Source: a virus | Direction: 5' to 3' (one strand) | Virus record (IMG/VR): IMGVR_UViG_3300021478_000015 | Coordinates: 62,001 to 126,000 of that record | DNA: 64,000 nt | Shown here: one piece after another, positions 242 to 49,765 of the stretch | Position numbering within the stretch: position 1 is the first letter of the stretch | Layout: each line of letters opens with the position of its first letter | Position numbers and translations under genes: made by a program | The notes under the pieces: model-generated | What the model was told of the DNA's origin: nothing | The model's database searches: none | What the model saw: the letters and a program-made list of their open reading frames with translations, nothing else

Positions 242-1008
242 GTGATACCGAGACCCCTACCAATCGGAGTTCAACATCGGATACTCCTATGTTCTGCACC
301 AAGTGTCATCAGATTGTGCAGAAGCCAGGACCCTGCCCCAAAGGCGGAAACCATCATCTTGTCTCCATCTCTGACAAAGGGGTGCAGGGTCAGGGGGAGA
401 ATGCCGGGACTGAGAGCACCAAGACCGATAAGCCTGATGATCCCAAGAAGTCTCCCAAGGATCAGGATATGAAGAATAAGCCCAATGGTCGGCAGGCCTC
501 AGTAGCTAACCAGAATGATCGTATTCGGGCTTATGCCATGCAGTATTTGGCTCATGACTCCGGTGATGGCCAGACGGTGTATCACTGCCCGTTCTGCGGT
601 GGTGGCAACGTCATCGGCCGATCGGACGGCACCATCGCCTGTGGCTTCTGCAATACCCACTTCACCGTGCAGGTCCAGCCCGAGTTCGCGGGCATGCCCC
701 AGACCATCGACGGCCAGCCCTACGACATCCCCGGCATGCCTGGTGGGGTCGATCCCAACACCGGCATGCCGCCCCAGATGGACGGCATGGCAGACGGGGA
801 AGAGGGCGAGGACGGAGGCTTTCCACCCGAGGAACCGCCGGATGGAGCGGACATGGGCAGCCCTGAGGATGAAGAGGCCCAGGGCAAGAACGGCACCTCG
901 GTGCCCTGGGAGCATCAGTCGAGACGGCTCTACCGCACGGCGGCCGGAACCATGACCGAGGAGCAGTACCTGGCCCATCTCGCGCTCATACACAGTGTGT
1001 CCGAGTGA
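238..1008 (+). CDS. Zinc-ribbon protein with acidic Pro/Met-rich tail
   Basis: 256 residues. The N-terminal part has a CTKC pair followed by a downstream Cys and His-His. The centre has a clear four-cysteine zinc ribbon (CPFC, about 15 residues, CGFC near residues 118-140). The remainder is rich in Gly, Met, Asp, Glu and Pro and probably disordered. ATGA overlap with the upstream gene supports the start. Position before the portal suggests a virion or packaging accessory role, but the family is not recognised. The first 340 bases use noticeably more A/T than the rest of the gene. Confidence 0.75.
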   Translation: MSDTETPTNRSSTSDTPMFCTKCHQIVQKPGPCPKGGNHHLVSISDKGVQGQGENAGTESTKTDKPDDPKKSPKDQDMKNKPNGRQASVANQNDRIRAYAMQYLAHDSGDGQTVYHCPFCGGGNVIGRSDGTIACGFCNTHFTVQVQPEFAGMPQTIDGQPYDIPGMPGGVDPNTGMPPQMDGMADGEEGEDGGFPPEEPPDGADMGSPEDEEAQGKNGTSVPWEHQSRRLYRTAAGTMTEEQYLAHLALIHSVSE

Positions 1009-1011
1009 TGC

Positions 1012-1353
1012 ATGACCGTGCCGGTTTTGATTCAGCAGTATACGGCCAATATCTACCCGAACGCGGGCTCAGCTTATTCGTCTGAGCATGAATGTGAAGG
1101 ATCGAAGTTTCATTCCCCTAATCCGCTACTGGTCCATGAGGTAGATCTTGTTCCCTGGGATGGTCATCCGACATCACATACCGCTTGGCTGTGCGGAACC
1201 TGCCGCGGAAATCTGTGGGTCTACCAGAAGATCCTCTATGAGCGTAAAGGCGACATCCCCTGGGATGTGCAGCGCTCCTTCGGCAATGGGATCCGAGCCT
1301 TGGCCAAGCGAGGTTGGGCCTTCTATACCAGCTACCTGGCAGGTTTGAGATGA
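1012..1353 (+). CDS. Hypothetical protein
   Basis: 113 residues, starting three bases after the previous stop and overlapping the portal start (ATGA). It contains scattered His and Cys (a CEGSKFH stretch and a CGTC pair around residue 65) that could bind one zinc ion, and a basic C-terminal helix. No family recognised. Its tight placement in front of the portal gene suggests co-expression with the packaging/head genes. Confidence 0.7.
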   Translation: MTVPVLIQQYTANIYPNAGSAYSSEHECEGSKFHSPNPLLVHEVDLVPWDGHPTSHTAWLCGTCRGNLWVYQKILYERKGDIPWDVQRSFGNGIRALAKRGWAFYTSYLAGLR

Positions 1354-3521
1354 GTTCGTTCTGGACACCGACCGGTGAGCACCCCATACCTAACGAGCGT
1401 GACACCGATGTCCTGGGCAGGTTGGCCGCGGCCTCCCTGCGCCGGGGCGTGGCCGATGGTCCAGGGGAGGAGTCCCCTGAGGTCCAGGAGATGCGGAAGA
1501 ACCGCCGGGTCAACCGCCGTCTGAACGGGATCAGTCGGACGGCCGATCTCATGTCGGGCTCGGGGGCCTCGTCCCTGTCGTTTGCCACCGGGCGTCCACA
1601 GGACCCCATGTTCTATTGGAAGCAGGCCAACCTTCCCTATGACATCTGGAAGGAAGAGGAGCTTGTAGTCATCCGGCATTACTGTCGGTTGCTCTACCTC
1701 ACGCATCCACTGCTGGCCTCAGCCATTGATATCTTCAGCAAATACCCCATGCAAGGCATGGAGCTAGCCTGCAAGGACAACGAGCTTGTTGACTTCTATA
1801 GCACACACTTCTTGGAGGATCTGAACTACCCAGAGTATCTGACCGATGTCTTGCATGAGCGTTGGCTGGTAGGAGAAGCGTGGCCATTAGGGCAATGGAA
1901 TGACACCCTGGGTATCTGGGAGGACGACGAGCTAATCAACCCCGATGACGTGGATGTCATCAAGAGCCCGTTCATCAAAGAGCCCCGCTTCGAGATGCGC
2001 CTGCCGGAGTCCCTCCGCAAGATCCTGAAGGAGCGCCAGCCCGAGTGGGAGTACAAGAAGCTGGTCAACGCCTACCCCGAGCTTCTGGCCTTCCTGGCCG
2101 ACGACGCCCGCATGCCGGTGTCCAACATCCTGCTCAAGCAGATCAAGTTCAAGGCCGACACCTTCCATCCCCGCGGCGTGCCCATCCTGATGCGAGGCTT
2201 CCGGGCCGTCTTCCAGGAGGAGATGCTGAACGCGGCCCAGGACGCCATCGCCTCCCGGCTGTACACCCCGCTCATCCTGGCCAAGATCGGAGCCTCGGCT
2301 ACTGATCTGGGCACCCAGTACCCCTTCATCCCCACCTCGGCCGACCTGGCCGACTTCGAGGAGGCCCTGGACGAGGCTCTGGCCGCCGACTTCCGGGTGT
2401 TGACCCACCACTTCGCCCTGACCATGGAGTCGGTGTTCGGCCGCGAGGTCATGCCCGATCTCAGCGGGGACTTCGATCGCCTGGCCGAGCGCCAGCTACA
2501 GGTCTTCGGCATCTCCAAGACCATGCTATCCGGAGCCCAGAATGGTGAGACCTACGCTGCTGACGCCTTGAACCTGGACATCATGAGTCAGCTATTGGGC
2601 GGGGCACAACGGCTGATAAAGAGATTCTTCAAAGAGCGAGCATTGGTGGTAGCCGAAGCTCAGCAGCACTGGGATTACGAGATAAGAGGTGGCAAGAAGT
2701 ACCCGGTGATGGAGGAGGTCCTCGAAGTGGATGAGGAGACCGGTGAGAAGCGCATCATCGAGCAGCCCAAGCTGTTGGTGCCTGATCTGGTCCTCAAGTC
2801 CATGGACATGAAGAACGACACTCTGCGCCGCCAGCTACTCGAAGAGCTACGCAGCACCGGGGTGCCCATTTCCATGAAGACCCGACTTACCAACATCGAC
2901 ATCGATCTGGACGACGAGATCGAGCAAACCCGCGACGAGCAGATCAAGATCGCGGTGGCCACCCAAGAGACCCGCCGGGACACCTTCTCCGCCCTCACCG
3001 CCCAGGGCCTGCCTATCCCCGAGGACCTGGAGACCGACTTCCGGGCCAAGGCCATCGACGCTGAGGAAGGCGGTCCAGCGGCCGAGCAGTTACCCCCGCC
3101 CAACATGGCCATGGATCCCGCCGGAGGAGCCCCCACTGCTCTGGTCCCTGGTCCCGAGGACTATGCCATGGCTGACCAGGCCGAGGAGGAAGGTGGGCTG
3201 CCACCTGACACCGGAGCCGCCACCGGGGCAGTACCACCGAGCCCGCCTCTAGCCACCATCATCCCCCTGCCGCGCCAGCGCATGCGCCCTGAGGAGTCCG
3301 ACGAGCGCCGAGGGGACATGCCCAAGCGATCTGCCCTCTTCAACAGCGATGACATCGTCTTCGATCCCTGGGTGGCCAAGGCGGTCATCAGGGGTGACGA
3401 CGGCGAGGACCATGAAGAGGGTGCCCACCGGCTGATCACCGGCCCGGCTCACATCGGCATGCGCCGCTACGTCCGCCTCGATCCCACCGAGCCCCTGCCG
3501 GACGCTGAATCAGAGCGATGA
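1350..3521 (+). CDS. Portal protein
   Basis: 723 residues. The N-terminal third carries the layout typical of large actinophage portals: a YWKQANLPYD-type segment, then a helix with HPLLASAIDIFSKYP, and acidic loops leading to the wing region. The central part contains long helices and QAFGISKTML-like text (here QLQVFGISKTML, about residue 380), and the C-terminal 150 residues are Pro/Gly/acidic and probably disordered. The portal forms the dodecameric DNA channel at one capsid vertex. A TTG 36 bases upstream is in frame, but the ATG overlapping the preceding stop is the better start. The identification is by overall resemblance and position; the family was not searched. Confidence 0.8.
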   Translation: MSSFWTPTGEHPIPNERDTDVLGRLAAASLRRGVADGPGEESPEVQEMRKNRRVNRRLNGISRTADLMSGSGASSLSFATGRPQDPMFYWKQANLPYDIWKEEELVVIRHYCRLLYLTHPLLASAIDIFSKYPMQGMELACKDNELVDFYSTHFLEDLNYPEYLTDVLHERWLVGEAWPLGQWNDTLGIWEDDELINPDDVDVIKSPFIKEPRFEMRLPESLRKILKERQPEWEYKKLVNAYPELLAFLADDARMPVSNILLKQIKFKADTFHPRGVPILMRGFRAVFQEEMLNAAQDAIASRLYTPLILAKIGASATDLGTQYPFIPTSADLADFEEALDEALAADFRVLTHHFALTMESVFGREVMPDLSGDFDRLAERQLQVFGISKTMLSGAQNGETYAADALNLDIMSQLLGGAQRLIKRFFKERALVVAEAQQHWDYEIRGGKKYPVMEEVLEVDEETGEKRIIEQPKLLVPDLVLKSMDMKNDTLRRQLLEELRSTGVPISMKTRLTNIDIDLDDEIEQTRDEQIKIAVATQETRRDTFSALTAQGLPIPEDLETDFRAKAIDAEEGGPAAEQLPPPNMAMDPAGGAPTALVPGPEDYAMADQAEEEGGLPPDTGAATGAVPPSPPLATIIPLPRQRMRPEESDERRGDMPKRSALFNSDDIVFDPWVAKAVIRGDDGEDHEEGAHRLITGPAHIGMRRYVRLDPTEPLPDAESER

Positions 3522-3529
3522 AGGGGTGA
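3494..3529 (+). promoter_or_regulatory. 36-base late-gene element, copy 1
   Basis: CCTGCC, 20 bases ending in TCAGAGCGAT, then GAAGGGGTGA, four bases before the ATG of the following gene. It overlaps the portal stop codon. It is the most upstream of seven copies sharing exactly the same spacing. The 3' half resembles an extended Shine-Dalgarno sequence; the conserved 5' half does not and implies another function. Confidence 0.6.
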
Positions 3530-3533
3530 GGCC

Positions 3534-6500
3534 ATGCCTTTCTCTTCCTTCCCTCACCTGCGAAAGACGGCCCGAGCCGAGGCCAACGTGGCCAGCCGCG
3601 ACTACCCCGAGCTTGAAGAGGTGCTGGTCGAGAGGCCCCCGCCTAACTCTCACCAGGCCAAGGGCGTGGACGGCCTGTGCGCCCTCTGTAACGCCGAGCC
3701 TGCCACCCAGGAGATCTCCGGGACCACCGTAGGGGAGCGCTGCGCCGAGCACCTCATGGGCGTCCCTGGGGCCGGTACAGCCCCTCCTGAGTTCGGTCAG
3801 GCCATCTATGGCAGCCGAGAAGTTGTGGATAAGTTGTATCCGAAGACCGGCGGGATCCTGGACTGGCTGGACCGCAAGATCGGTCCTCTGGCCCCTCCCC
3901 AGGGCAACCGATGGAGCTTTGACTGGTGTCGGTACCGCCATGACTCCCACTGCTTCTACCCCTCCGGGCTCGATCCGCAGGCCACCTCCCTGGCGGGCTA
4001 CGCCGTCTGGTCCCCTCAGGACCGAGGCACCTGCCCTCGCATCTCCTGGGAGTCCCAGGAGGCCTGCCCTATCGGCGCGCCCGGTCCCAACTCCGGGGTA
4101 TCCGGAGCCGCCCCCGACGCTTACACCCTGCAGCAACCGGCTCGACCCCGAGGGTTCCTCAACCGGCTCTTTGGATCGCTGGATCAAAAGGATCCGGATT
4201 TCCGTTTTCACTTCATAGCAACCTGGGCTGATGTCAGAGCTAAGGCCAATGAGCTAAAGACAACGGGTTGTGTAAGGATCATCAGTTCTCCCACTGCTAC
4301 GAATCCGTATACGATGGCCGAGGTTAAGAGCGGTGATCGTGTTTATCAAACTACTATTCTTCGCACCCTTGGGGGCAGATCGGTAGCTGGGTGGGAATGC
4401 ACCTGTGCATGGGCGCATTATGCTTGGGGTAGATCAGGTAGATGGCAGAGATTCGAGGGACGTATGTGCTCTCATGCCTTGGCTACTTATATGACTCCGA
4501 AGAAAACCCCGGAGTACGATAAGACTAAGGAAGTGGATGAGAAGAATAAGTGGCCTGAGCCTTATCGAAGTCCCTTAGGACCATCTCCGGTTATCCCTGT
4601 TACTACGCAAACATTCTCACCGGGGGATCCAATACCAGAGTTTAAACCCTCTGACAAAATGCAGAGGTATCTTGAAACAGGCACATCTGCAGAGAAGGAT
4701 CGAGAAGGTAATCCTATTGAGAACTGGAGACAAGACATATCCAAGCGGGAGCCTGAGGTTCTGCAATGGATGGAGGATTACGAGAAGCGGGGCAGCCTTC
4801 ACAAGCTGAGCAACTTCTCCCCTGAGCGACCCATCGCCATGGAGGTCGAGGCTCGCCTGGAGGCCGGTGAGCACCCCAATGTGGTCCTGAGCTACCTGCG
4901 GGAGGCCGGAGCCCCCTGGCCGGAGTACATCCTCACCGAGGCCATGCAGAAGCCCTTCATCGCCCGCGATCCGGCCGATGAGCTACATACCATCGTCCAT
5001 CTGGACGGGGGTGAGGCGGTCACCGACGCTGGGGAGCGGATCCCGGCCGAGCACCTGTTCCATCCGGAGTTCGACTGGCATAGCGGGCTGGAACCTCCGG
5101 CGCAGCTTCAGTCGCATGCTGCGAAGATCCAGCGGGACCCCAGTCCCCACCTCAATGCTGACGGCAGCGTTCACTCCGGGGTCATGATCGCCCTGGTTCC
5201 ACCGGACAAAGTGCGTCAGAACCTGGCGGTTGAAGACGGCGAGACCCCGGAAAACATGCACGTCACCGTTGGGTATCTGGGCAAGAAGGACAGCGTTGAC
5301 CCCGACGCTCTCCATCGAGCCGTCTCTTCCTTTGCCAAGGAGGCCCCGCCGCTTCGGGGCAAGGTCTCCGGCTTCGGCAACTTCGAAGTGGATCCCGATC
5401 GTAACGATGGCTATTCCCATGCCCATGTCGGCCTGGTGGACATCCCCGGCATCTCGGGCTTCCGCTCCAAGCTCGAAGAGCATCTCGGGCGCGAGGGTCT
5501 CAAGATCAACGACGAACATGGTATTCAGCCACATCTGACAGTCGCTTACGGCCATGAGCCTGCCGAGTACGACCAGATGCCCGATACCACCGACCATTTT
5601 GATCTCCCTCACGTCACCGTGGGCCATGGCGGTGAATGGACCCATTATCCCCTCGAAGGCAGCCCGCCCGTGCCAAAAGAGGGCATGCTGCGCTGGGTGG
5701 CGGTGGGAGGCTACGGCGACCTGCTGGCTCCGCACTGGCAGCCCTCTGAGCCAGCCCAGGGCCGGGGCCGCGGTCGGGCGCACAATCCCGATGCCACCAA
5801 GTTCTCCACCTACGACCCGAACTTCCAGAAGAAGATCTCCACTCAGTTCCATGACAACGTGCCGTCCGAACTCGGCGTCAACAGTCATAAGGACTTGGTC
5901 GAGAACATCAAGGGCATGTACCGGGAGGCCAAGAAGACCAATCCCAATGCGGTGCGAGCCGGGATGTCCTGGTACCGGGATGCTCACAACTTCAACAAGC
6001 AGCTAGCCGATAAGCACCCGGATGGGAACCTGAGGAAAGCTCTCGGTATGACGGCGGCTTTGTCGCCGCAGAACCACTGGGAGGAGAACAAGACTCAGGC
6101 CGAGTACATCCACCATCACCTGAGCGCCGATCCGGACTCCGAGGATGGCCGGTTCAACATCTCGACCGAGCACGCCCAGGCGGCCATGGACAAACAAGCC
6201 GAGCAGGCCAGCGTGGTCAAAGGCAATCGTCAGGTGCAGCAACTTACGCCGGGCAAGCGCTTTGCCGACATGAGCCATGAAGAGGCGGCCCACTCCCTCA
6301 AGGCCCAGGCCCAGTACACCCACCAGTTGAAGGTCCCCGGCCGCCTGAAGAACAACGGCGAGCCCTGGTCGGCCACCTTCGCCAACGGCACCGGGGCGAT
6401 CACCAAGGCAGTGCGGATCCATCGCGGCGAGGATCCCGATGATGTCCTGCAGGGTCACAAGGTCCGTTCTTTCTTCAACAACATGGCGGATCACACCAAC

Positions 6501-7964
6501 CGTAAGAAGCAGGACGATCTCACTATCGACACCCATGCAGTCTCGCTGGCGGCCGGAGCCAAGTTCGGAGCCAGCGCCCCGGAGATCAAGACCATGTTCG
6601 CCAATGGGGCCAACAAGGAGCAGAATGTCACCGGCACCTACGGTTACTTGGCCGATGCCTACCGCAAGGCCCACAAGGATCTGGTGGACTCCGGCGAGAT
6701 GCCCAAGACCAGTTCGCCCCATCACCTGCAGGCCGTCACCTGGACCCACTGGCGCGACATCAACGACGAGCCCGGTCCGCTGAAGGAAGCCAACAAGGGC
6801 CGCTTCCGCGACTACTCCGGTGAGAACGCCGCCCGGCTGAAGAAGTTCCGCCAGGAGCGGGCGCAGAGCCAACAGGTGGCCGCCAGCATTCACTGGGCGG
6901 CCGATGACACCGATCCTGACGATTCTGGCGACCTGCTCGATCCCACCGCCTACGACCCCGACGCCATCGATCCGGACTTCGATCCGGACCTGGCTGACGA
7001 GGCCGAGCAGGCTGAGTGGGATGCCGAGCCCGAGGAGATGGCCCAGCGCCAGGCCGAGCGCACCGAGAGCGATGCCCTGGCCCGGCGGAATGACCACGGT
7101 CAGCTACCCCGCATCTCCATGCTGCATTGGTCAAGTGTCCAAGACAGCGGGATTTCCGAGGATGTCGATCCCGGCACCGCCGATGCCATGGACGAGGCCT
7201 CATCGGTGCAGAAGGCCTACAACGACGAGGCGGAGGCGGCTCAGGATGACTGGTACTTCAACCAGCCCAACAACACCAAGCCCTTCGCGGACAACTCGGC
7301 CAACGTCCCCACCTACATGAGCGCCCTCCCCCATGGGGCCTCGATGGTGCGTTGGGGTGCGGAGGCGGCCGAGGAGATGCTCAGAGACGAGCCCGAGGGG
7401 GCCTTGCCCTCTACGGACGGTGGAGCGCCCTCAGAGGACTGGGAGGCCCAGCACTCCACCACGGCCGCCGATCCCATCAGCGCCGGTCCTGCGGGCTTTG
7501 GGAGCCCTTTGGACCCCGGCTACAGCCATGAGGACCTGGGCTACCCCGAAGCCGACGAAGCGGTTCTGCGGCCATCCGGCGGGCCAGGGGCCGGGTCCTT
7601 CATGAACAAGATGGAAGACCAGTTCACATCGCTGGACGCGACAGGCTCTCTGGACCCCGGAGCCGGGAGTAGAGCTTGGCTGCTTCAAGGAGATCCCTCT
7701 CGAAATGCTGGTGGTGACCAGGGCATCAGGGATTCCGACATCGCAGCCATGGCTCGGCGCTTCTTAGATACGGGTGAGCTACCCGAGGGGTCGGGACCGC
7801 AAGCCAAGGTGGCGGCCAAGGTGTTCTCTCCGGCCGAGCAGCAGGAGTTGATCCAGGAGGGCTCAGACGGCACCAGGGCCTCCAACCTCGATCGCCTGCA
7901 GTTGGAGGGCACCCACTACCAGCCGGACGAAGACGAGGAACTTGAGGGGCTCTTTGATGCCTGA
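3534..7964 (+). CDS. Giant multidomain head-region protein: SWIM-like zinc, 2H phosphoesterase and glycosylase-like domains
   Basis: 1476 residues. Residues about 30-70 hold a Cys/His cluster (CALC, later CAEH). Residues about 286-325 have CTC, 21 residues, CSH, matching the SWIM zinc motif CxCx(n)CxH. Residues about 545-700 contain HVTVGYLG (about 577) and HLTVAYG (about 667), the paired HxTx motifs of 2H phosphoesterases (LigT/2'-5' RNA ligase-like), which act on 2',3'- or 2',5'-phosphodiesters. Residues about 760-1120 contain AALSPQNHW and DTHAVSLA signatures seen in a phage family I associate, tentatively, with HhH-type DNA glycosylase folds. The last 350 residues are acidic and low complexity. 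The SWIM region (about 4190-4760) has much more A/T-rich codons than its flanks, as if inserted. Placed directly after the portal and behind a late element, it is probably a virion protein, perhaps packaged with DNA. Confidence 0.75.
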   Translation: MPFSSFPHLRKTARAEANVASRDYPELEEVLVERPPPNSHQAKGVDGLCALCNAEPATQEISGTTVGERCAEHLMGVPGAGTAPPEFGQAIYGSREVVDKLYPKTGGILDWLDRKIGPLAPPQGNRWSFDWCRYRHDSHCFYPSGLDPQATSLAGYAVWSPQDRGTCPRISWESQEACPIGAPGPNSGVSGAAPDAYTLQQPARPRGFLNRLFGSLDQKDPDFRFHFIATWADVRAKANELKTTGCVRIISSPTATNPYTMAEVKSGDRVYQTTILRTLGGRSVAGWECTCAWAHYAWGRSGRWQRFEGRMCSHALATYMTPKKTPEYDKTKEVDEKNKWPEPYRSPLGPSPVIPVTTQTFSPGDPIPEFKPSDKMQRYLETGTSAEKDREGNPIENWRQDISKREPEVLQWMEDYEKRGSLHKLSNFSPERPIAMEVEARLEAGEHPNVVLSYLREAGAPWPEYILTEAMQKPFIARDPADELHTIVHLDGGEAVTDAGERIPAEHLFHPEFDWHSGLEPPAQLQSHAAKIQRDPSPHLNADGSVHSGVMIALVPPDKVRQNLAVEDGETPENMHVTVGYLGKKDSVDPDALHRAVSSFAKEAPPLRGKVSGFGNFEVDPDRNDGYSHAHVGLVDIPGISGFRSKLEEHLGREGLKINDEHGIQPHLTVAYGHEPAEYDQMPDTTDHFDLPHVTVGHGGEWTHYPLEGSPPVPKEGMLRWVAVGGYGDLLAPHWQPSEPAQGRGRGRAHNPDATKFSTYDPNFQKKISTQFHDNVPSELGVNSHKDLVENIKGMYREAKKTNPNAVRAGMSWYRDAHNFNKQLADKHPDGNLRKALGMTAALSPQNHWEENKTQAEYIHHHLSADPDSEDGRFNISTEHAQAAMDKQAEQASVVKGNRQVQQLTPGKRFADMSHEEAAHSLKAQAQYTHQLKVPGRLKNNGEPWSATFANGTGAITKAVRIHRGEDPDDVLQGHKVRSFFNNMADHTNRKKQDDLTIDTHAVSLAAGAKFGASAPEIKTMFANGANKEQNVTGTYGYLADAYRKAHKDLVDSGEMPKTSSPHHLQAVTWTHWRDINDEPGPLKEANKGRFRDYSGENAARLKKFRQERAQSQQVAASIHWAADDTDPDDSGDLLDPTAYDPDAIDPDFDPDLADEAEQAEWDAEPEEMAQRQAERTESDALARRNDHGQLPRISMLHWSSVQDSGISEDVDPGTADAMDEASSVQKAYNDEAEAAQDDWYFNQPNNTKPFADNSANVPTYMSALPHGASMVRWGAEAAEEMLRDEPEGALPSTDGGAPSEDWEAQHSTTAADPISAGPAGFGSPLDPGYSHEDLGYPEADEAVLRPSGGPGAGSFMNKMEDQFTSLDATGSLDPGAGSRAWLLQGDPSRNAGGDQGIRDSDIAAMARRFLDTGELPEGSGPQAKVAAKVFSPAEQQELIQEGSDGTRASNLDRLQLEGTHYQPDEDEELEGLFDA

Positions 7965-8310
7965 TGTCGAGCGCCATCCCGAGGGTGATGTCGAGGACGT
8001 GGTCTCCGGCTACCGGGTGTACAAGCCCTTCGTTCCGCATGTCCTGGACGAGGAACTGGCCACCGAGCTTGGCCGGGACAAGGTCGATATCGCCTTTGAG
8101 GGTGATCCGGCCACTGCCTCAGAGGATGAGCCGGTCATCATCTACATCCCTCATGACATCCCGGTCAAGCAGGTCACCCGCATCCTGGCCGCCCATGAGA
8201 CTGCTCCGGCGGTGGATGCCTTGGCTGATGTCAGGGGAAAGTTGGAGCGAGACGAAGAGCTAAGTGATCGTGAGGTCAGGGCTGTTCTCAAGTTCTTGCT
8301 GGGGATCTGA
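7957..8310 (+). CDS. Hypothetical head-region protein
   Basis: 117 residues beginning MPDVERHPEGDV. The start overlaps the end of the preceding gene by eight bases, and the stop overlaps the next ATG. Sequence is mixed helix and strand without Cys clusters or membrane segments. Its place between the large head-region protein and the appendage genes would suit a connector or accessory structural role, but no family is recognised. An in-frame GTG 15 bases earlier is less likely. Confidence 0.7.
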   Translation: MPDVERHPEGDVEDVVSGYRVYKPFVPHVLDEELATELGRDKVDIAFEGDPATASEDEPVIIYIPHDIPVKQVTRILAAHETAPAVDALADVRGKLERDEELSDREVRAVLKFLLGI

Positions 8311-9305
8311 TGGCCACATCCATCTCAGCCCGGAACTACTCCTCTACCACTCTGCCCACGCAGATCACCACCAATATCGATAATCAGACCACCACCAATA
8401 ACATTCCGGTGGTATCCACTGCTGGCTATCCTCCGGCTCCTTTCACCGGTTGTTTCGAACGCAATACCATCAATCAAGAGTTCTGTCTGGTCACTGGCAT
8501 TCCTGATGCCTATCACTTCACTGTGGTTCGAGGGTATGACGGTACTCCTCCGGTGCAACACCTGGCCCCGGCCACATTCGAGCATTGTGTCGGAGCCATT
8601 GACTACCGCGAGGCCAACTGGCATCACACCGACAACACCCGCGACGATCACCTCCAGTATCTCCTGACCAACGGGTCGAGGCCCTCCACCGGCCCGCAGG
8701 CCTTTCCGGCTGGGATCAGCACCAACATCCTGTCGGTGGCCGGGAACACCCCTGGCTCCTACGTGGCCACTCGGTACGTCGGAGGGACGGCCGGTCCTGG
8801 GCCGCCGGGAGCGGGGACCTATCAGGTAGGGGACTGGGCGCTCGACACCATCAACTCCCGCTGGCTGTGCGTGCTGGCTGGCACCCCCGGTACCTGGATC
8901 CCTGAGACCGGCCATGTCTACGCCCGTGTCTATGGACCTGCTGCATCTACAGACATCGTCAATACCACCATCAATGTACTGACCTATACCTTCACTGCAG
9001 TGAAGGGCGTGCAGTATGTGGTGGATGCTCGGTTCCAGGCCTCGATAGTCACGGCTCTTCCTAACTACGTCAACTCCGCCTTGTATTGCTCGGGTGGATT
9101 GCTGACGCCTACGGTTTACATCTGCAGCTTCAACTCGGCGGCGTTGGCTGTAGGTGGGGCCTTCAATGGATCAGCGACGGCAGCCTTGAACATTCCGGCG
9201 GCTACGGCCACTGTCACTCTGACCTTGCAAGCCACCTCATCGGGAGCCGGAGCAGCGGCCAGGTGTGGAGGATACAACGGTGAACTGATCTTGAGGAGAG
9301 GCTGA
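8310..9305 (+). CDS. Virion appendage/fibre protein, paralogue 1 of 3
   Basis: 331 residues. Residues 1-125 are a conserved module shared with the next two genes (ISARNY, then STAGYPPAPFTGCFERN, RGYDGTPP, and the fibre signature DDHLQYL). A short collagen-like PGPPGAG turn follows, then VGDWALD and a beta-rich C-terminal domain with many Thr/Val/Ala alternations. Such architecture is typical of capsid fibres or tail appendages in actinophages: a conserved attachment module with an exchangeable tip. Start and stop overlap neighbours (ATGA and TGATG), so the three paralogues form one translational unit. Confidence 0.7.
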   Translation: MATSISARNYSSTTLPTQITTNIDNQTTTNNIPVVSTAGYPPAPFTGCFERNTINQEFCLVTGIPDAYHFTVVRGYDGTPPVQHLAPATFEHCVGAIDYREANWHHTDNTRDDHLQYLLTNGSRPSTGPQAFPAGISTNILSVAGNTPGSYVATRYVGGTAGPGPPGAGTYQVGDWALDTINSRWLCVLAGTPGTWIPETGHVYARVYGPAASTDIVNTTINVLTYTFTAVKGVQYVVDARFQASIVTALPNYVNSALYCSGGLLTPTVYICSFNSAALAVGGAFNGSATAALNIPAATATVTLTLQATSSGAGAAARCGGYNGELILRRG

Positions 9306-10300
9306 TGCCCACCGCTATCTCGGCTCGCAACTTCAATAACACCGCTCCTCCCACCAACATCACCGCCAACATCGACAATGCCCTGACCACCACCAACATC
9401 CCGGTCACCTCCACCGCCGGATATCCTCCGGTCCCCTTCACCGGCTGCCTGGAGCGCAACACCCTCAACCAGGAGTTCGTGCTGGTCACCAACGTCATCG
9501 ACGCCAACCACTTCAGCGTGGTGCGCGGCTACGACGGCACCCCGGCCATCAACCACGTCGCCCCAGCCACCTTCGAGCACTGCACCGGAGCCATCGACTT
9601 CCGGGAGGCCAACCAGCACCATACCGACACCACCAGGGACGACCACCTGCAGTACGTGCCGACCAATGGCTCCCGAGCCATCACCGGGCCACAGACCTTC
9701 AACGCCGGGATCAGCGCCCAGACCTTGGCTCTGGCCGGATTCCCCGGTGCCAACATCGCCACCCGATACGTGGGCGGCACTGGTCCTACCGCTCAGGGTC
9801 CGCCAGGAGCGGGGACCTTCCTGGTCGGTGACTGGGTCCGCGACATCGTTGGGGTGGTCTGGACCTGCGTGGTGGCTGGCTCTCCGGGCACCTGGATACC
9901 TGAGTGCGGTCGCACCATATGGAACGTCAAGGGGCCAGGCGCGCCCATGGACGTGGTCAACACCACCCGGACCCTGATCTCTCACACCTTCTCAGCGGTG
10001 AAGAACGTTCAGTACATCGCTAATGTGAGCATCCAGGGAACCATCGTCACGGCTATTCCTGGTTACATCAACTGTGTTGTCACCGGATCAGCCGGGACAT
10101 TGACCGGAAGCATTTTCGTGATGTCCTACAATGCTACGGCGTTGGCGGTAGGTGCTGTCATGGGCGGCAGCTTGACCATTGGGCTCAACGTGCTCGGGGC
10201 TACGGCCAATACCACCATCACGGTGACGGCAGCAGCATCTATTCATGGGGCCTATCGATTGGGTGCAGGGGCGGCGCAGTTGATGATCTGGAGAGGCTGA
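9305..10300 (+). CDS. Virion appendage/fibre protein, paralogue 2 of 3
   Basis: 331 residues, the same length as paralogue 1 and alignable over its whole length, including the DDHLQY signature, the GPPGAG turn and VGDWVRD. By eye its first 600 bases use distinctly more G/C-ending codons than the flanking paralogues, so the copies may have separate histories or be an old duplication recoded by drift. The C-terminal tip differs most, as expected for a surface-exposed or receptor-contacting domain. Confidence 0.7.
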   Translation: MPTAISARNFNNTAPPTNITANIDNALTTTNIPVTSTAGYPPVPFTGCLERNTLNQEFVLVTNVIDANHFSVVRGYDGTPAINHVAPATFEHCTGAIDFREANQHHTDTTRDDHLQYVPTNGSRAITGPQTFNAGISAQTLALAGFPGANIATRYVGGTGPTAQGPPGAGTFLVGDWVRDIVGVVWTCVVAGSPGTWIPECGRTIWNVKGPGAPMDVVNTTRTLISHTFSAVKNVQYIANVSIQGTIVTAIPGYINCVVTGSAGTLTGSIFVMSYNATALAVGAVMGGSLTIGLNVLGATANTTITVTAAASIHGAYRLGAGAAQLMIWRG

Positions 10301-11302
10301 ATGGCTACTCCCATCGCGGTCAGGAACTACTCCTCCACCGCTCTTCCCACCCAGATCAGCACCAATATCGACAACCAGTTGACCACCACCAACATCCCGG
10401 TGGTCTCCACGTCGGGATATCCACCGGCTCCTTTCACTGGCTGCTTCGAGCGTAATACCATCAATCAGGAGTTCGTACTGGTCACGGGTGTTCCCGATGG
10501 GTTTCACTTCATCGTGGTGCGGGGTTATGACGGCACGCCTCCAGTGCAGCATCTCGCTCCAGCTACCTTCGAGCACTGTGTGGGTGCCATCGATTATCGA
10601 GAAGCGAACTGGCATCACACTGACACCACTCGGGATGATCATCTGCAGTATGTCCCAGCTAATGGATCGAGGCCTTTCACCGCCCCTATGTCGGCTCCGG
10701 GCGTAGCCTCGAACCTGACCGGCACCAGTGGACGTTATGTCGGTGTGACCCACGGGGCTCCCACCGGAACCAGCGTGACCTATCAGGTCAACGACTACGC
10801 CAGTGATCCTACGAATCATTGCTTCTGGTATTGCACTACGGCAGGCGCGCCGGGGACCTGGACATCTTCCTTGGTCCTCCCCGCCGCCCGACTCTTTGCC
10901 TCAGCGCAGACGGTGATAGGAGTCAACGCCTATGCTCAGGTCGTCTCATTAGCTCAGGATCACGCGGTGGGTGGATGTACGACAGCCTCCAACGCCATCA
11001 AGCTTCCTATCAGTGGGATCTACCGGGTGTCCTGTGCGATCATGTGGCAAACCAGCAACAATCCAGCGGGAGCAGGTCGTTACGTCGCGGCTATCTTTCG
11101 TAATGGAGCCATGGTTCGACAGTACAATCAATACACCTATGGATCGGCATTTGCTCATCCTGGGGGGTCAGATACCGGGCAGTACGCCGCTAATGATCTC
11201 ATTACTCTTTACGGCTGGCAGGGCAGTAGTGGGGTAGAAGGCACTTATGCTGGTTCGCCGTACACGTATATTGCTGTTGAGTTTGTGAGCATGCTCTCAT
11301 GA
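10301..11302 (+). CDS. Virion appendage/fibre protein, paralogue 3 of 3, with C1q-like tip
   Basis: 333 residues. The first 125 residues match paralogues 1 and 2 closely, but the second half is unrelated to theirs. It has the rhythm of a C1q/TNF-like jelly roll (LPISGIYRVSCAIMW, then AAIFRNGAMVRQYN, then NDLITLYGWQ), similar to the repeated domains encoded at 57-61 kb. This is a clear case of a shared base with a swapped tip. It starts directly after the preceding stop codon. Confidence 0.7.
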   Translation: MATPIAVRNYSSTALPTQISTNIDNQLTTTNIPVVSTSGYPPAPFTGCFERNTINQEFVLVTGVPDGFHFIVVRGYDGTPPVQHLAPATFEHCVGAIDYREANWHHTDTTRDDHLQYVPANGSRPFTAPMSAPGVASNLTGTSGRYVGVTHGAPTGTSVTYQVNDYASDPTNHCFWYCTTAGAPGTWTSSLVLPAARLFASAQTVIGVNAYAQVVSLAQDHAVGGCTTASNAIKLPISGIYRVSCAIMWQTSNNPAGAGRYVAAIFRNGAMVRQYNQYTYGSAFAHPGGSDTGQYAANDLITLYGWQGSSGVEGTYAGSPYTYIAVEFVSMLS

Positions 11303-36030: not shown

Positions 36031-39000
36031 ATGAAGCACTACGCCGCCCTGGAGATCATCAGCGCTGAGTACGGCGATCAGCACTCCCTCCGTCACCTGG
36101 CCCATCGGGCGGACTTCACCTACGCGCCACGTCCCGGCTACCTGTACGTCCGCTCCAGGGCCATCAGTTCACGCACGAATGACAACTTCGATGACTTCCC
36201 GGCCGAGGAGATAGAGAAGGGCTACCGGTCGTTCATCGGGAAGCCAGTGTTCGTTAACCATGTCAACGAGGATCACAAGCGTGCTCGGGGTGTGGTCATC
36301 GATGCCGCCCTGCATCATGATGTGAATCCCAATGGTTCGCCGGATACATGGTGTGAAGTATTGATGGAAGTAGACGCACTACGCTTTCCGAAGTTGGCTC
36401 AAGCGATCGTCCAAGGTCATATCGATCGTACTTCCATGGGTGTTGACGTGGAGTACTCGATCTGTAGTGCCTGTGGTAATAAGGCCACGAACCCGGCGGA
36501 GTATTGTCGTCATATTCCGCAGATGAAGGGCTCGAAGATCGTCCGGCGGAATGCCGCCACCAACCGGCCAGAAGAGACTCTCATCTTTGAGACCTGCTAT
36601 GGGCTGAGCTTCTTCGAGAACTCGTTACTGGTCGAGGATCCCGCCGATCCCACGGCCTACTTCCTGGGCGTGGACGATCGTGGCCTCAGGATGGCCCAGA
36701 AGACCGCACATAGGAAGCTATGTCGGCAATGTCTCACTTCGTCATCATGTGCCGCGTACGGATGTGGGCGTAGCTCAGAGGGCCTGGGAGCTTTCGTGGC
36801 CAGCACACCGGGCAACTTCGACAAGATCCCTCAGCACCACTGGGATTACCTGTCCGATCTGGTGGACCGAGTGGGCCAGCGCGAGAAGACCCCCAAGGTG
36901 TGCTGGCAGGTGTTCTCGGCCATCGATCACAAGCTGGGCTACCCCCAGGAGTCCGGCTACTACCGGGGTGAGGGCCACTACTGGAATCGCCTGCCGGACG
37001 GCTCCATCCTCGATGCCAGCCATGATCAGTTCGAGGAGGACGACGACCCGGTGCGGATCTTCGCCCCTGGTGATCCCGAGCACGGCCATTTTAAGACGGC
37101 TGTGCGCCACCAGGAGGGCCTGGGAGCCTTCGTGGCGGCCCATGACCTGGACGAGGCTGTGACCTCCTTCAAGCCCTATGCCGAAGAGCAAGGTTGGCAT
37201 GATCCGACTTGCGTAGGTGGGCAATGCGACGTGGCCTCGACGGAGTTCGCCCAGCACCTCCATGAGCACGGCATCCCCCATGAGGTGGTGACCCACTATC
37301 CCGAGCCGGGTGGCCCCATGAGCCACAGCGTGGTCGAGGTCGGGGACCACACAGTGGACTGGACGGCTCGCCAGTTTGACCCCAAGGCGGACTTTCCTCA
37401 CATCGAGCCCCATCACGTCACCCGCAGTCGCTGGCACCGCACCGAGCCCTACTACGGTGAGATCGAGTATGGCAAGGATTACCGAGAGGCGTCCTTAGCG
37501 GGTGATAAGTCCTGGATCAAAGAGGAGCATGACTACGAGGGTCGTCATGGGGAGCGCCGTCACATCACCCGCACCATGACGGGAGCATTGCCCACCCATC
37601 TGGTCCAGCACTTGATGGGTGTCAAGGGCGAGATACCCGGTGAGCATCGTAATAAGCAAGGTCAGCAATGGGAGGACTTCAAGTCCGACATCGCTCAGAA
37701 CGGCATCAAGAACCCCATCTTTATCACCCAGGATCCGGGGGAGCGACCCAAGATCTCCGAGGGCAATCACCGCCGGGACGCGGCGGTGGAGCTTGGCCAT
37801 CCCTACGTGCCGGTGGAGATGCGCTACTTCGGTCACGCCGAGCAGGATCCCGACAACCTGGAGGACAAGGCCCAGGCCCACTTCGATCGGGAGAACCAGA
37901 TCCGCAGCTTGGGTACTCGCAGGCTCGCCCGTTACGAGCCCGAGCCCGACGCTCCCGAGGAGGGTGAGTACGAGAAGGAGCCCGATCCTTCGGGTTTCTT
38001 CCCCAACGGCATCGCCACCCGTTGGCGACAAGCGCATAAGCCGCTGGTGGCGGACGCCTTGCACGCCTGGAAGGGCGACCCCGTCAACGCTCTGACTCAC
38101 TGGCACCACGAACTCAACGACGATCCCCAGCCTGACTCGGGCTCGGGCAAGCAGATGCGAGCCCAGTCCGGGGCTCTGCGCTGGGAACTTCAAAATAACT
38201 CCAAGACGTTCGGACGCAAGCTCTATCGAGGAGTGCCCACCGCCCAGGACCGCCTGCCCAAGGTGGGCGACATCATCGACCATGACGACCGGCCGCGGGG
38301 CTACTCTTCCAACCGGGCCACGGCTTGGGCCTTCGCCCGCAAGTCGGGCTCCGACCACCTGCGCCGTCCCCTGGTCCCGGTCACCTACCAGACCGCGCCG
38401 GGCACCCAAGGCCTGCGGATCAAGGACTACGGCACCGGCAGCGGTCTTGATCAGTCCGAGCAGGAGTACGTCCTCCATGGCCAGCATCAGGTCACCCACG
38501 TCGAGTCCACCGACAAGGGCCTCCATGTGCGGACCCGACCGTTACAGAGCTACACGGCCGGGCTCAGAGGCTTTGTGGCCGCACGGGGCGATGACCCTGG
38601 CCTGGATGAGGCCCTGGACCAGTTGGGAGAGATCCTCTCCCGCCCTTCCCATGCTCCTCCCCCGAAGATCCTGCCCGAGGCCCATGAGATGTACGGCGGC
38701 TACATCCATGAGCACCCTTCCGGTCACCTGCACGTCTCTGAGGCCCCTGGAGCGCTGTCTAAGCCCCTGGAGAAGCTCTACCGCATCGTTCACCCTAAGG
38801 AGTGGGAGGAGGCCCAGCAGAAGGGCTACCTGCAGTCCAACACGGCCTTCTCGCCGGGTTACACCAGGGCCTCGGCCCAGCCGGACGAACGCTGGCGGCG
38901 GCAATCGGCTGATCCCTCCGAGATTGCCCCCAAGGGCCACACCATAGAGATCGACTACCACCCCGATGACAACTGGCATGCCTCGGCCGAGGGCTACGCC

Positions 39001-42000
39001 GCCACCCGCTCGAAGATCCCGCTCAGCCGGGTCCGCAAGATGGCCAAGACCGAGGTCTCGGTGGCCGGGCTAGCAGTACTGGCCGCCGATACGGGCCGGG
39101 TGCTGATGCTGCAGCGCGCCAACCATGATGTCAAGGATCCGGCTGCGGGCACCTGGGAGTTCCCCGGTGGTCATCTCAACCCCGACGAAGCGCCAGTCGA
39201 GGGGGCTATACGGGAGTGGAAGGAAGAGCTTGGCTGCAAGCTGCCTGCCGGGCATGTCCAGGGCCATTGGATCTCGAAGAAGATCTATCAAGGCTTCGTC
39301 TATGTCATCGAGCATGAGGACGAGGTTGACATAAACCACGATCATGAGAATCGCCAGGTCCTGAACCCCGATGATCCTGATGGGGATGAGATCGAGGTGG
39401 CGGCCTGGTTCGAGCCCAAGGACCTGCCCGACATGCCTGCCCTGCGCGACGAGGTCAAGAGCGGCACCGACTGGTCCAAGCTCAAGCTCAAGAAGACGGC
39501 CGGACTCGAAGCATTCCTGGCCGCCTACTACCATGTCAGCCCGCACTGGTTGCCATCAGGGACCAAGCTCACCCCCGGCGGGGGCCGTCGCAACTTCGGG
39601 GGCCGGGCCGACAGTGACGCCGTGTACATGGCTGGGTCAGAGGGCGAGGCCGAGCAGTGGGGCAACGCCATGGCCCAGGACGAGCCCACTGGCCATCTGC
39701 ACATCTACGAGGTCCAGCCTCACGGCCCGGTCACCCACAGTCAGGGTCATGTGACCATGGACGACTTCCACGATGTGATCGGCCAGCACGCTGCCCCAGC
39801 GGCCACCATCGTCCGCCATCACTACTCCTACGATCCCGAGAGCGGGGAGGCCTTCTATCCCCATGAGGCCGGGCTTGGAGCCTTGGCGGCGGCCGAACCC
39901 ACCTTCTACCACGGGACCAGCGACGATCTAGAGCCGGGTAGCCAGCTTTCGGTGGAGGAGGCCACTCGGCGGCAACCAGAGGTGGCCAAGGCCTTAGAGG
40001 ATCGGGGTGGTCAGCACATCAGCTTCACCACCGACTACCAGCACGCCCAGATGTACGCCGGGGTCCGCGCCCAGACCCGCGGCGGGACGCCTCGGGTGTA
40101 TCGGGTGCAACCAACCGGGGGCTACGAGCCCAACCCCGCCGACGAGAAGTGGCGGGAGGGCAAGCCGCCCATGTCCTTCAGGACCAAGGAGCCGGTCACC
40201 GTCCTGGGGGAGGCCACGCCACCGAAGCGGCGACGGAAGCAGAGCGGACTGATGGCCTTTGTGGCTGTCAATGCTTCGGATGAGGTCCCGCCTGAGCCTG
40301 GTCTCTCGCCTATCCCTGAGGGCCACGTCCGGCTGTTCCACCAGACCGGCCCGAAGCACGTCGAGTCCATCCGTCAGAACGGGCTGACCATGGAGCATGC
40401 TCGGGCCACCGGAGGGCCGGTCGGGGTGTGGGCCAGCCACGGCACCCGCTTCTATCCCGGCCAGGACCACGCCACGGTGGAGTTCCACGTCCCCTACAAG
40501 GAGCTACAGGACACCGCCGGAGGCCAGTCGCCCCACCGCCATCAGCCCCAGGAGGACTGGGAGCAGTCCAACCACCACACCCTGGTCATCCCCCGCTCGA
40601 TCAAGCCCCATGAGATCACCGCCATCCATGAGCCCTGGCACGATCGCTATCGGTACTTCCACAACGAGGGCATGACCGACGAGGTCAAGCAGGGTGGCTT
40701 CGACAACCTGAAGGACATCCCTGACTACGGCCGGGCCATCGACAAGATCAAGAGCGAGGCCAGCCTGCACCTGGCCATGAACACCGAGGACGAGGTACCC
40801 CCTCGACTGGGCACCGCGCCCATCCCGGAGGGCCATGTGCGCCTCTATCACCACACTTGGTCCAAGAACGTGCCCAGCATCCGCGAGCACGGTCTCCTGG
40901 CCGAGATGGGAAAAGGTGACAGTGGCAAGGGCTACGGCAATGAGCTATCGGCCGGGGTATGGGCGGCTAGTCAGCATCCCGAGCCTGATCCCCAGAGCGA
41001 CCGGCATGTGATCGAGTTCCACGCCCACCCCTCCGAGATCGATGTCAACGGGCCTTCTCCTGGCCAGGATGTCCATAAGTGGCAGCAAGGTGATCACAAC
41101 GTCTTGATGCGGGGCTCGGTCAAGCCCGAGAACATCCTGGCTATCCATGCCCCCTGGCATACCGCTTATCATCAGATCAACGATGATCCCCGCGACCGGG
41201 AGGATGTCAAGAACGGCAAGCTGGACTGGGTCCATAACGATCCCTCCATGCCGGGCGTGAGCAAGGCCGTTCACAAGATCCAGGCCGAGGGGGCGGCCCG
41301 GCCCAACATCGGCAAGGGCTGGTGGCTCACCCCCGAGGGCAAGAAGATCGGCGTGTACGACCACTATGAGACGACGCCTGGCATGGCTCGTCAGATGATC
41401 CGCCCGCACATGGCGGAGAGTGGTCAGGTTAGGGTCCGTAGTTTCAACAATCAACTCAACGTGCAAACGGCCCGTCCCTTCACCGATAAGCAGCGTCAGA
41501 GTTTGCTGATGGATGCGGACCGACATAGCCGCATGTTTGTGGACGTGCTCCACCCCGATACTGAGGAGTCCATCCACTCCGAGTCCGGGGGTCCCGAAGA
41601 AGCCGATCGCATGCTGGCCCGAGCCCATCGCGCTGCCATCCCCCATGAGGCCAAGAGGGCGGTGCAGGGTGCTCGAAAGGTCACTCAGGTGCCCCTGCAA
41701 CACATCCTCACTCACACCGAGCCCACCGACATGGCTAGCTACGGCCACACCTGGCCGGACGCCTTCCGCGACATCGAGGAGAACCATGAGGACTTCGCCC
41801 CCAAGCATTGGGGCAAGTTCCTCGATCACGTCCAGGCTCACGGCATCCAGACTCCGGTGGTGATCCTGCATGACGGGGAGCGCCAGAAGCTGTTCTCCGG
41901 CCATCACCGGGTGTGGGCCGCCCACCGTTTGGGCCTCAGCCATGTCCCCGCCTATCACACCGACGATCCCTCCGAGGCCTATGACTTGATGGACGAGCAG

Positions 42001-48772: not shown

Positions 48773-49765
48773 ATGAGCATGGTTGCCACCGCAGCGGGGC
48801 TAGCGCCGAAGCGAGCCAAGAAGTCGGACGATTACGTCCAGGAGATCCTCAAGCGCCGCGGTGGGGACGGCAACGTTCCCTCCCTGACCCATGAGGCCAA
48901 GGTCCGCAAGCTCTCGTTGATCCTCCAGGACGAGGTCAACGGCATCCGCCGCCTGGGCGTGGGCATGGTCGGCCCTATCCAGCTAAAGCTGCGCTACCAG
49001 GGCATCGTCCGCAACGTGCTGATCGAGGACCCGGTCACGCCGGGCACCCCGGTGGAGTACGACGTGTGGGACGACCTCGGCCAGGCCTACCTCATGAGTG
49101 GCACCGAAGGCGAGGTCCGGGTCACTCCCTTCGAAGGCAAGCGCCTGCCCATCCGGTTCTGGCGTATCGCCTCCCGTCCGGCCATCCGCAAGGAGGACCT
49201 GTTCTACCTCCGCATCAATGCAGTCGAGCAGGCCCAGGACGAGACCAAGCAGGCCATCATGAAGCAAGAGGACAGCCGGATGATGGTGATCATCCAGGCC
49301 GCCCTCACCGACTACGCCTCCCGGCCGGACCATGTGGTCACCCCCAACCACACCGTGTACGAGGCTTCGGGGTACTTCACCCCGCAGTCCATGTACACCG
49401 CGGTGGCCCAGTCCGACATGCACGAACTGCCTGCCGGGCGCATGTTGGTCAACCCCTTTGACTACCGGGACTTCTTCCGCTGGGACATCAACACCACCGG
49501 CTGGGCCTTCAAGGACCGTATCGTGGCCGGGGAGCAGATCCAGAGCTTCGGTGAGTTCCAGTTCCAGCGTTCCATCATGGTCCCCTCGGGCCAGATGTTC
49601 CTGCTTCCCAACCCTGACTTCCTGGGTGTGTTCCCGGTCCTGTACTCGCTCGATGTGGAGGAGAACCACAACGTCGAGGCCTTCTGGAAGGGCTGGGTGT
49701 TCGATGAGATGGTGTCGATGGCCATCCTCAACCCTCGGGGTATCACCACCGTTCTCAAGGGCTAA
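48773..49765 (+). CDS. Major capsid protein
   Basis: 330 residues, AAGGAG site. It shows the plan of HK97-fold capsid proteins of large phages: a helical N-arm (DDYVQEILKRRGGDG), a long spine helix region (INAVEQAQDETKQAIMKQE), a P-domain with MYTAVAQSDMHELPAGRML, and the terminal signature MFLLPNPDFLGVFPVLYSL, then WKGWVFDEMVSMAILNPRGI, closely resembling the ending of other phage major capsid proteins. Its place after protease, scaffold and decoration genes agrees. Confidence 0.85.
   Translation: MSMVATAAGLAPKRAKKSDDYVQEILKRRGGDGNVPSLTHEAKVRKLSLILQDEVNGIRRLGVGMVGPIQLKLRYQGIVRNVLIEDPVTPGTPVEYDVWDDLGQAYLMSGTEGEVRVTPFEGKRLPIRFWRIASRPAIRKEDLFYLRINAVEQAQDETKQAIMKQEDSRMMVIIQAALTDYASRPDHVVTPNHTVYEASGYFTPQSMYTAVAQSDMHELPAGRMLVNPFDYRDFFRWDINTTGWAFKDRIVAGEQIQSFGEFQFQRSIMVPSGQMFLLPNPDFLGVFPVLYSLDVEENHNVEAFWKGWVFDEMVSMAILNPRGITTVLKG

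Follow-up and report, generated by a model that had tools for sequence, protein, structure and literature searches.

What does a protein of 1476 residues do directly behind the portal gene of a phage, and could it travel in the virion? The gene lies in a window of 64,000 nucleotides from a metagenome-derived viral record, whose source is probably a large phage with an actinobacterial host. A first-pass annotation had proposed a multi-enzyme virion protein that could disarm nucleotide-based immunity or process DNA at entry. There is a published frame for such a proposal: in the passages of Iyer et al. (PMC5512222) on polyvalent proteins, several unrelated enzyme domains likewise occur in one polypeptide among head genes, cleavage of RNA or of defence nucleotides is already predicted for 2H domains near the portal or MuF, and T4 Alt and others serve as precedents for enzymes packed in the head and then injected.

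The reading frame and its neighbours

The genomic setting is given by these features:

1362..3521, + strand: portal protein gene, just 5' of the 1476-aa reading frame (phrog_2833, E 1.7e-132; portal HMM match)
3522..3533, + strand: 12-nt spacer from the portal gene to the reading frame, with the Shine-Dalgarno-like GGGGTGAGG
3534..7964, + strand: gene of the multi-domain post-portal protein, 1476 aa
36031..45381, + strand: prohead-protease polyprotein, 3116 aa, protease domain at residues 1-215, with NUDIX, Arr, ParB-like and GNAT units (genomic context)
48773..49765, + strand: major head protein gene (phrog_2522, E 9.5e-93; genomic context)

The reading frame is open and complete and, as the first-pass annotation had it, directly after the portal. 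Its placement "behind a late element" is unsupported, because a scan of positions 900-8400 returned 0 promoter-like sites against 1.5 expected; the portal gene and the reading frame look co-transcribed. The portal gene has a possible TTG start at 1314.

Given a record derived from a metagenome, the fusion of several domains might be suspected to be an artefact of assembly or annotation. This is barely credible: an independent contig from another metagenome (L008) carries a homologue of 1901 aa, 71% identical and of the same architecture, with the same unit order in one frame, which largely refutes an artefact, and a further locus (L113) holds another fusion of SWIM region and 2H unit.

The 2H and DUF7178 units

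The enzyme-like part of the protein begins with a 2H phosphoesterase unit:

5145..5690, + strand: 2H phosphoesterase domain, residues about 538-719 (PF13563, PF02834; PDB profile matches)
5259..5270, + strand: catalytic motif 1, H576-V-T-V (His and Thr invariant in alignment A7)
5532..5543, + strand: catalytic motif 2, H667-L-T-V (His invariant in alignment A7)

The paired HxTx motifs had been recognised earlier, and together with two curated profiles above cut-off (PF13563, 36.8 bits against 27; PF02834, 30.3 bits against 23.3) they satisfy the definition of the 2H superfamily. In a profile search against the PDB the unit matched 1vdx, 5h7e and 1iuh, with solved RNA 2',3'-cyclic phosphodiesterases matching at E 1e-9 to 2e-6. 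By profile, then, its nearest relatives appear to be these RNA enzymes (ThpR/LigT) and not Acb1. ThpR/LigT (PF13563, TIGR02258) share the 2H superfamily, whereas the unit here is embedded in a phage head-gene protein. The anti-CBASS nuclease Acb1 (PMC9117128) has the same HxT/HxT active-site layout, but even at E up to 1 its model, PF23474, did not match the 1476-aa protein, and its matches to relatives were weak (E 0.07-0.2). When bacterial genomes were searched with the 2H unit, a single distant match appeared, in Gemmata; an alignment of mixed 2H sequences proved too diverse for use as a query.

The unit could accordingly be read in two ways. The earlier idea of disarming nucleotide immunity has on its side the published prediction for 2H domains of polyvalent proteins, as worded in the relevant passages of PMC5512222, and is weakened by the nearness of RNA phosphodiesterases and the missing Acb1 match; a defence nucleotide as substrate can be put forward tentatively. 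RNA is only slightly less likely as a substrate: the unit would trim RNA ends, as a Usb1-like RNase or as a 2',3'-cyclic phosphodiesterase, in the turnover of host RNA or the repair of tRNA, and would play no part in signalling immunity. The closest solved relatives point this way, as does a weak match to the ThpR equivalog TIGR02258, and an RNase is one of the two options in those passages of Iyer et al. (PMC5512222); yet the TIGR02258 score (22.4 bits) is far under the equivalog cut-off of 65.7. A role in tRNA or RNA repair was considered and rejected: a search with PF09414 found no ATP-grasp RNA ligase, its positive controls having matched, and no tRNA genes occur in the 156,983-base record, which is possibly incomplete.

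The second unit follows downstream:

5883..6770, + strand: DUF7178 domain, HhH-GPD-like, residues about 784-1079 (PF23802; alignments, models, Foldseek, hhalign)

This is the region previously called glycosylase-like; it is DUF7178 by profile (98.4 bits, residues 784-1076), and its similarity to HhH-GPD proteins is distant. In an alignment of 42 sequences (A6), K222, D245 and H247 are invariant and represent the HhH lysine and a downstream D-x-H; in the 1476-aa protein, K976 and D999 correspond to the glycosylase Lys/Asp pair. With hhalign, the invariant Lys/Asp of DUF7178, 17-23 residues apart, fall on K120/D138 of EndoIII, at a pairwise P of 0.0035 (probability 9%) against 0.66 for an unrelated 2H control. 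About 85 residues within the domain of the 1476-aa protein form a low-confidence insert; because this insert is unstructured, the match table for an AlphaFold model of the window's own DUF7178 was uninformative, and a compact relative was therefore folded instead. That model is all-helical, and its most probable Foldseek neighbours are AGOG and OGG1, AGOG being the best glycosylase (probability 0.63, TM 0.50, E 1.0, which is not significant). The Pfam HhH-GPD profile had no match to DUF7178. What the unit appears to share with AGOG, OGG1 and EndoIII is thus the Lys/Asp pair and the helical model, at E-values that are not significant. Taken together, alignments and models make DUF7178 a predicted distant HhH-GPD (DNA-glycosylase-like) fold, with no single test significant, and the proposed role in DNA processing at entry would be compatible with such a fold. 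Of 30 prohead-protease members, 7 carry the domain as a fusion; it also lies in a reading frame 5' of the portal at one locus (L145), and its fold is predicted within other very large phage proteins; a literature search on DUF7178 found nothing.

A conserved frame with exchangeable units

On either side of the enzyme units, and between them, lie the following:

3678..3752, + strand: possible zinc knuckle C49-x2-C52 ... C70-x2-H73 (kept in the L008 alignment; putative function)
4203..4496, + strand: SWIM-like region, residues about 224-321 (phrog_30974; family HMM 9e-39; PF04434 in relatives)
5682..5702, + strand: junction motif GMLRWVA, residues 717-723, between 2H and DUF7178
6882..6902, + strand: junction motif ASIHWAA, residues 1117-1123, past DUF7178
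7116..7136, + strand: junction motif SMLHWSS, residues 1195-1201
7341..7361, + strand: junction motif SMVRWGA, residues 1270-1276 (site of an extra cassette in L008)
7728..7922, + strand: conserved C-terminal GTHY tag, residues about 1399-1463, ...FSPAEQQELIQEG...NLDRLQLEGTHY (family HMM)

The SWIM-like CTC...CSH of the first-pass annotation bears out as a CxC...CxH signature, C289-T-C291 ... C312-S-H314; these cysteines and the histidine, along with W231, W293 and R310, are invariant across 35 family members. With an E limit of 1, the Pfam SWIM profile PF04434 does not match the 1476-aa protein itself; with a limit of 0.01 it matches 4 of the 35 members, and L113 clears its cut-off at the corresponding place (22.4 against 19.6 bits).

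The protein is one of an uncharacterised family, new here, with 59 other viral-contig loci. Used as queries against viral contigs, the whole protein and two-sequence alignments found little besides L008; DUF7178 and SWIM sub-alignments were productive. The family gene order is portal, SWIM protein, prohead protease and major capsid: the portal lies 5' in 48 of the 59 loci and the prohead protease 3' in 44, many of the remaining loci being limited by contig or flank ends. Members have in common the SWIM region and the C-terminal tag (found by family HMM in 51 of the 59), with swappable units in between; among the 35, these are LysM (7), NUDIX (4), 2H (3), and DUF7178, Arr and GNAT (2 each). We name this the Bxz1-like post-portal SWIM/GTHY family, and the 1476-aa protein carries both SWIM region and tag in one reading frame. 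The phages I3, E3, SCentae and Finch have the same gene order. Their gp102, gp76, gp92 and gp16, respectively, share the position, the SWIM region and the tag (likeness of the tag by blastp for the first three and by eye for Finch), but lack the fused 2H and DUF7178. These four genes are annotated as hypothetical or LysM-like. In I3, E3 and SCentae, and at 14 loci, 2H is a separate gene, gp101 in the case of I3, whereas here it is fused.

A short motif recurs in the linkers. At the SMVRWGA point, L008 has about 145 additional residues, a cassette flanked by two motif copies. By eye this cassette resembles an ADP-ribosyltransferase, an identity that we do not claim because no profile passed (PARP E 0.26, no PHROG). 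The GLxAFVA / MLxW motif was sought in other relatives, none of which has it. A looser form, [AS][SG][LIMVF][HR]x[AST], is 5.6-fold enriched in SWIM-family proteins, a figure to be read with the motifs having been picked post hoc and the test set partly overlapping the sequences of origin; portal, capsid and prohead proteins gave no enrichment. Between the window and L008, purifying selection is strongest in the 2H and DUF7178 units (pN/pS 0.22 and 0.24) and weak in the linkers (0.55-0.61). This, with the unit order kept in L008, puts the architecture beyond chance. The alignments and profiles show a frame holding a 2H unit and a putatively HhH-GPD-like DUF7178 unit, with variable linkers in which the short motif recurs.

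Could the enzyme units be inert passengers of a structural head protein, kept for bulk or binding? A conserved SWIM/tag frame whose units vary or are missing in many members would fit this, but both the Lys/Asp pair and the catalytic His/Thr pairs are retained, and constraint on the protein is strongest in the enzyme units, so we think it quite improbable.

A possible head cargo

The reading that we favour, with moderate confidence, is that the protein is a head-associated cargo protein of a Bxz1-like portal/prohead protease/capsid module, a polyvalent protein that is packaged and injected; location in the head would be the firmer step and injection the less firm. The frame (SWIM region and GTHY tag) would bring the protein into the prohead beside the portal, and it would then be packaged with the genome and enter the host together with it. 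There the 2H unit might open a cyclic or 2'-linked phosphodiester, in a defence nucleotide or at the end of a host RNA; the DUF7178 unit would act on DNA bases. The earlier virion idea thus gains from the conserved head position in 59 loci and from the interchange of cargo between two neighbouring head genes, while a literature search found no proteomics of E3 virions or of those of Bxz1-like phages.

That gap would also suit a late enzyme that stays unpackaged in the producing cell, its place beside the portal reflecting operon order only, as would the stand-alone 2H genes at the same place in other phages. We consider this improbable: the head-module position and fixed frame are conserved, the same units are exchanged with the prohead-protease gene, and the passages of PMC5512222 offer head-packaged multi-domain proteins as precedent, all of which make pure operon chance less likely.

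As a head cargo, the protein fits the published polyvalent class as those passages describe it (PMC5512222). First, at least two biochemically unrelated domains share the polypeptide (SWIM, 2H and DUF7178). Second, the gene sits among late head and packaging genes, with the portal 12 nt 5' and the protease and major head protein 3'. A zincin-like peptidase was sought with Pfam and gave no match at E up to 1; it is common in the class (about 36% of polyvalent proteins) and not defining. The frame does differ, being MuF, portal or a zincin peptidase in the published proteins as against SWIM and GTHY tag here, and the passages of PMC5512222 on these proteins make no mention of a 2H and DUF7178 pair or of the linker motif. 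The likeness to T4 Alt and further injected proteins of phage heads is in idea only; no homology is claimed, and packaging here is putative.

A more speculative extension, which we rate as rather doubtful, is that the injected enzymes are made as two head polyproteins (1476 and 3116 aa), cut by the prohead protease at the repeated motifs, with units swapped as motif-bounded cassettes. If so, the virion would hold a set of separate enzymes, and the prohead protease would do the cutting in place of a built-in zincin peptidase.

These comparisons define a conserved head-gene protein family of large actinobacteriophages, a probable carrier of interchangeable enzymes. It is present in the laboratory phages I3 and E3, which opens the polyvalent-protein idea to testing in a tractable host. 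A testable function is also gained for DUF7178, a domain abundant in phages, and where portal-side genes of these phages bear the label "RNA ligase", they encode 2H phosphoesterases.

The post-portal gene and its head-gene setting

The post-portal protein is a conserved multi-domain protein that lies among head genes and whose internal units are exchanged between relatives. Its gene lies in the window (bases 62001-126000 within a 156,983-base virus record):

3534-7964, + strand: post-portal multi-domain protein, 1476 aa

As the first-pass annotation had it, this 1476-residue protein comes directly after the portal: the ORF ending at 3521, immediately upstream, is the portal gene (phrog_2833, E 2e-132), and an SD-like GGGGTGAGG lies inside the 12-nt gap between the two. 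The "late element" also proposed before the gene is not supported, because a scan of 900-8400 turned up no sigma-70-like promoter (0 vs 1.5 expected; it is blind to other promoter types). The SWIM-like CTC...CSH motif resolves into C289xC291 paired with C312xH314; these positions are invariant across 35 family members, together with W231, W293 and R310. PF04434 (SWIM) itself matches 4 of the 35, and is above cut-off in the related locus L113.

The SWIM region matched post-portal genes in Rhodococcus, Gordonia and Mycobacterium phages (tblastn, phage records). Annotated phage maps place the portal first, followed by small genes, in many cases a 2H gene, then the SWIM protein, prohead protease and major capsid. 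A second common block, a C-terminal tag with GTHY at its end, occurs in E3 gp76, SCentae gp92 and I3 gp102 (local blastp). Alignment of the SWIM region recovered 59 viral-contig loci, including the contig of L008 (a homologue sharing this protein's architecture), and portal, prohead protease and tag were scored there with HMMs built in this analysis. The head-gene setting was borne out: the portal is upstream in 48/59, the prohead protease downstream in 44/59 (median gap 32 nt), and the tag is present in 51/59, with most tag-less loci cut off by a contig end. The first-pass annotation had proposed a place in the virion, with a role against nucleotide-based immunity or on incoming DNA; the post-portal protein is probably packaged near the portal and may be injected along with the DNA.

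Residues 124-187 (3903-4094) form a separate, unnamed Cys/His-rich module with 47% identity to MT837022, a human-faeces phage fragment (E 8e-11). Shortly downstream of the gene, three tail-fibre-like paralogues stand in tandem (8310-11302; 331, 331 and 333 aa), a triplet equally present in L008. In L008, an ORF resembling an HNH homing endonuclease (L008:9536-9994, - strand) lies antisense within the 5′ portion of the homologue.

The 2H and DUF7178 units

The 2H phosphoesterase, which the first-pass annotation had recognised from paired HxTx motifs, was recovered by two Pfam models: PF13563 (36.8 bits vs cut-off 27) and PF02834 (30.3 vs 23.3). A profile built from seven portal-associated 2H domains matched solved structures of the RNA 2′,3′-cyclic phosphodiesterase type (1vdx/1vgj 1e-9, 5h7e 4e-7, 1iuh 2e-6). 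The unit scores far under the ThpR equivalog cut-off (22.4 vs 65.7), and the Acb1 model has no match on the window protein. Judged by these comparisons, it is a 2H enzyme that forms a branch of its own, with RNA phosphodiesterases of the cyclic-phosphate type nearer to it than Acb1. This leaves the substrate unsettled, because LigT-like folds have repeatedly been adapted to cGAMP or 2′,5′-oligoadenylate (PMC11410667). Service in tRNA repair is spoken against by the 156,983-base record, in which neither an RNA ligase nor tRNA genes were found, though the record is possibly incomplete. The 2H unit would act on a cyclic or 2′-linked phosphodiester. I3 gp101, E3 gp74 and SCentae gp91, which lie beside the portal and are labelled phosphodiesterase or RNA ligase, are 2H phosphoesterases, and "RNA ligase" misdescribes them. 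At its N-terminus I3 gp101 further carries an ART-like stretch (by eye).

The region first described as glycosylase-like is DUF7178 (98.4 bits vs cut-off 27, Pfam), and is quite probably HhH-GPD-like. It is also frequent on its own, in solo relatives some 200 aa long (420 stretches confirmed across viral contigs), and several of these bear the annotation glycosylase or N-glycosylase/DNA lyase. Three residues are invariant in 42/42 sequences: K976, D999 and H1001 of the protein, which are K222, D245 and H247 when counted along the aligned window stretch. A compact relative gave a confident AlphaFold model (pLDDT 95.9, pTM 0.90), whose most probable PDB neighbours were AGOG (0.63, TM 0.50) and OGG1 (0.30); no PDB match reached a significant E-value. 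Against an EndoIII/MutY-type profile, the K falls on K120 and the D on D138 (P 0.0035, prob 9%), with P 0.66 for an unrelated control. Viral predicted structures show the fold embedded in large proteins as well (600-1500 aa), including one from phage Myrna. The unit may act on DNA bases.

Between the window and L008, pN/pS is 0.22 in 2H, 0.24 in DUF7178, 0.26 in the C-terminal part and 0.55-0.61 in linkers. The enzyme units are, by this measure, maintained.

Exchange of units and the linker motifs

Between fixed ends, the 35 members carry LysM (7), NUDIX (4), 2H (3), DUF7178 (2), Arr (2) and GNAT (2). In 7/30 members DUF7178 forms a fusion with the prohead protease, and in L145 it is part of a large ORF that precedes the portal gene. 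Nine related contigs (L116-L122, L124, L158) have it joined directly to the prohead protease. The fused 2H is the sole 2H match in the window's own genome. Because the tree clusters the window and L008 copies with L113 and Kovu and sets solo 2H genes apart (99/98), it suggests, tentatively given its long branches, that fused and solo 2H were recruited separately. An extra cassette in L008 is located exactly at the window's single-copy motif SMVRWGA and is bracketed by two motif copies, AMLHWAR and AMLHWSA. L113:7389-11645 is a further SWIM + 2H fusion, with two additional ART-like stretches (by eye) and a common EEPEGALPSTDG segment close to its C-terminus.

The window also encodes a very large polyvalent protein, probably the first of the multi-enzyme candidates in the first-pass annotation:

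36031-45381: prohead-protease protein, 3116 aa; N-terminal prohead protease, then NUDIX, Arr ADP-ribosyltransferase, ParB-like and GNAT units

It shows ART-like repeats (by eye) and a recurring GLxAFVA motif. The linker motifs were picked after inspection of the sequences: GLxAFVA-type motifs number nine here (0.06 expected), several adjoining domain edges, and [GSA][MLI]x[HR]W[ASGV] occurs three times in the post-portal protein (0.01 expected) and four times in L008. Among 13 control proteins, the former pattern appears once each in two and the latter in none. The exact linker motif is absent from the other relatives examined; a looser form is enriched in SWIM proteins only (38 vs 6.8). These motifs could be assembly helices or, by analogy, protease sites, since in SPN3US the prohead protease uses a short motif to cleave head proteins and ejection proteins (PMC10052503).

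The class of "polyvalent proteins" and such a 2H prediction are already published (PMC5512222), so novelty, as far as the available text of that paper extends, is confined to the SWIM/GTHY frame, the pairing of 2H with DUF7178, the interpretation of DUF7178 itself and a possible processing step.

Upstream of the window, a stand-alone Arr-type ADP-ribosyltransferase gene (L014:626-1036; PF12120 barely above cut-off) lies ~10 kb before the portal. Two large ORFs upstream of the portal, L014:3521-6613 (1030 aa) and L014:6610-9747 (1045 aa), have no PHROG match; the first carries the linker-like motifs SMMRWGE and SLRMSA.
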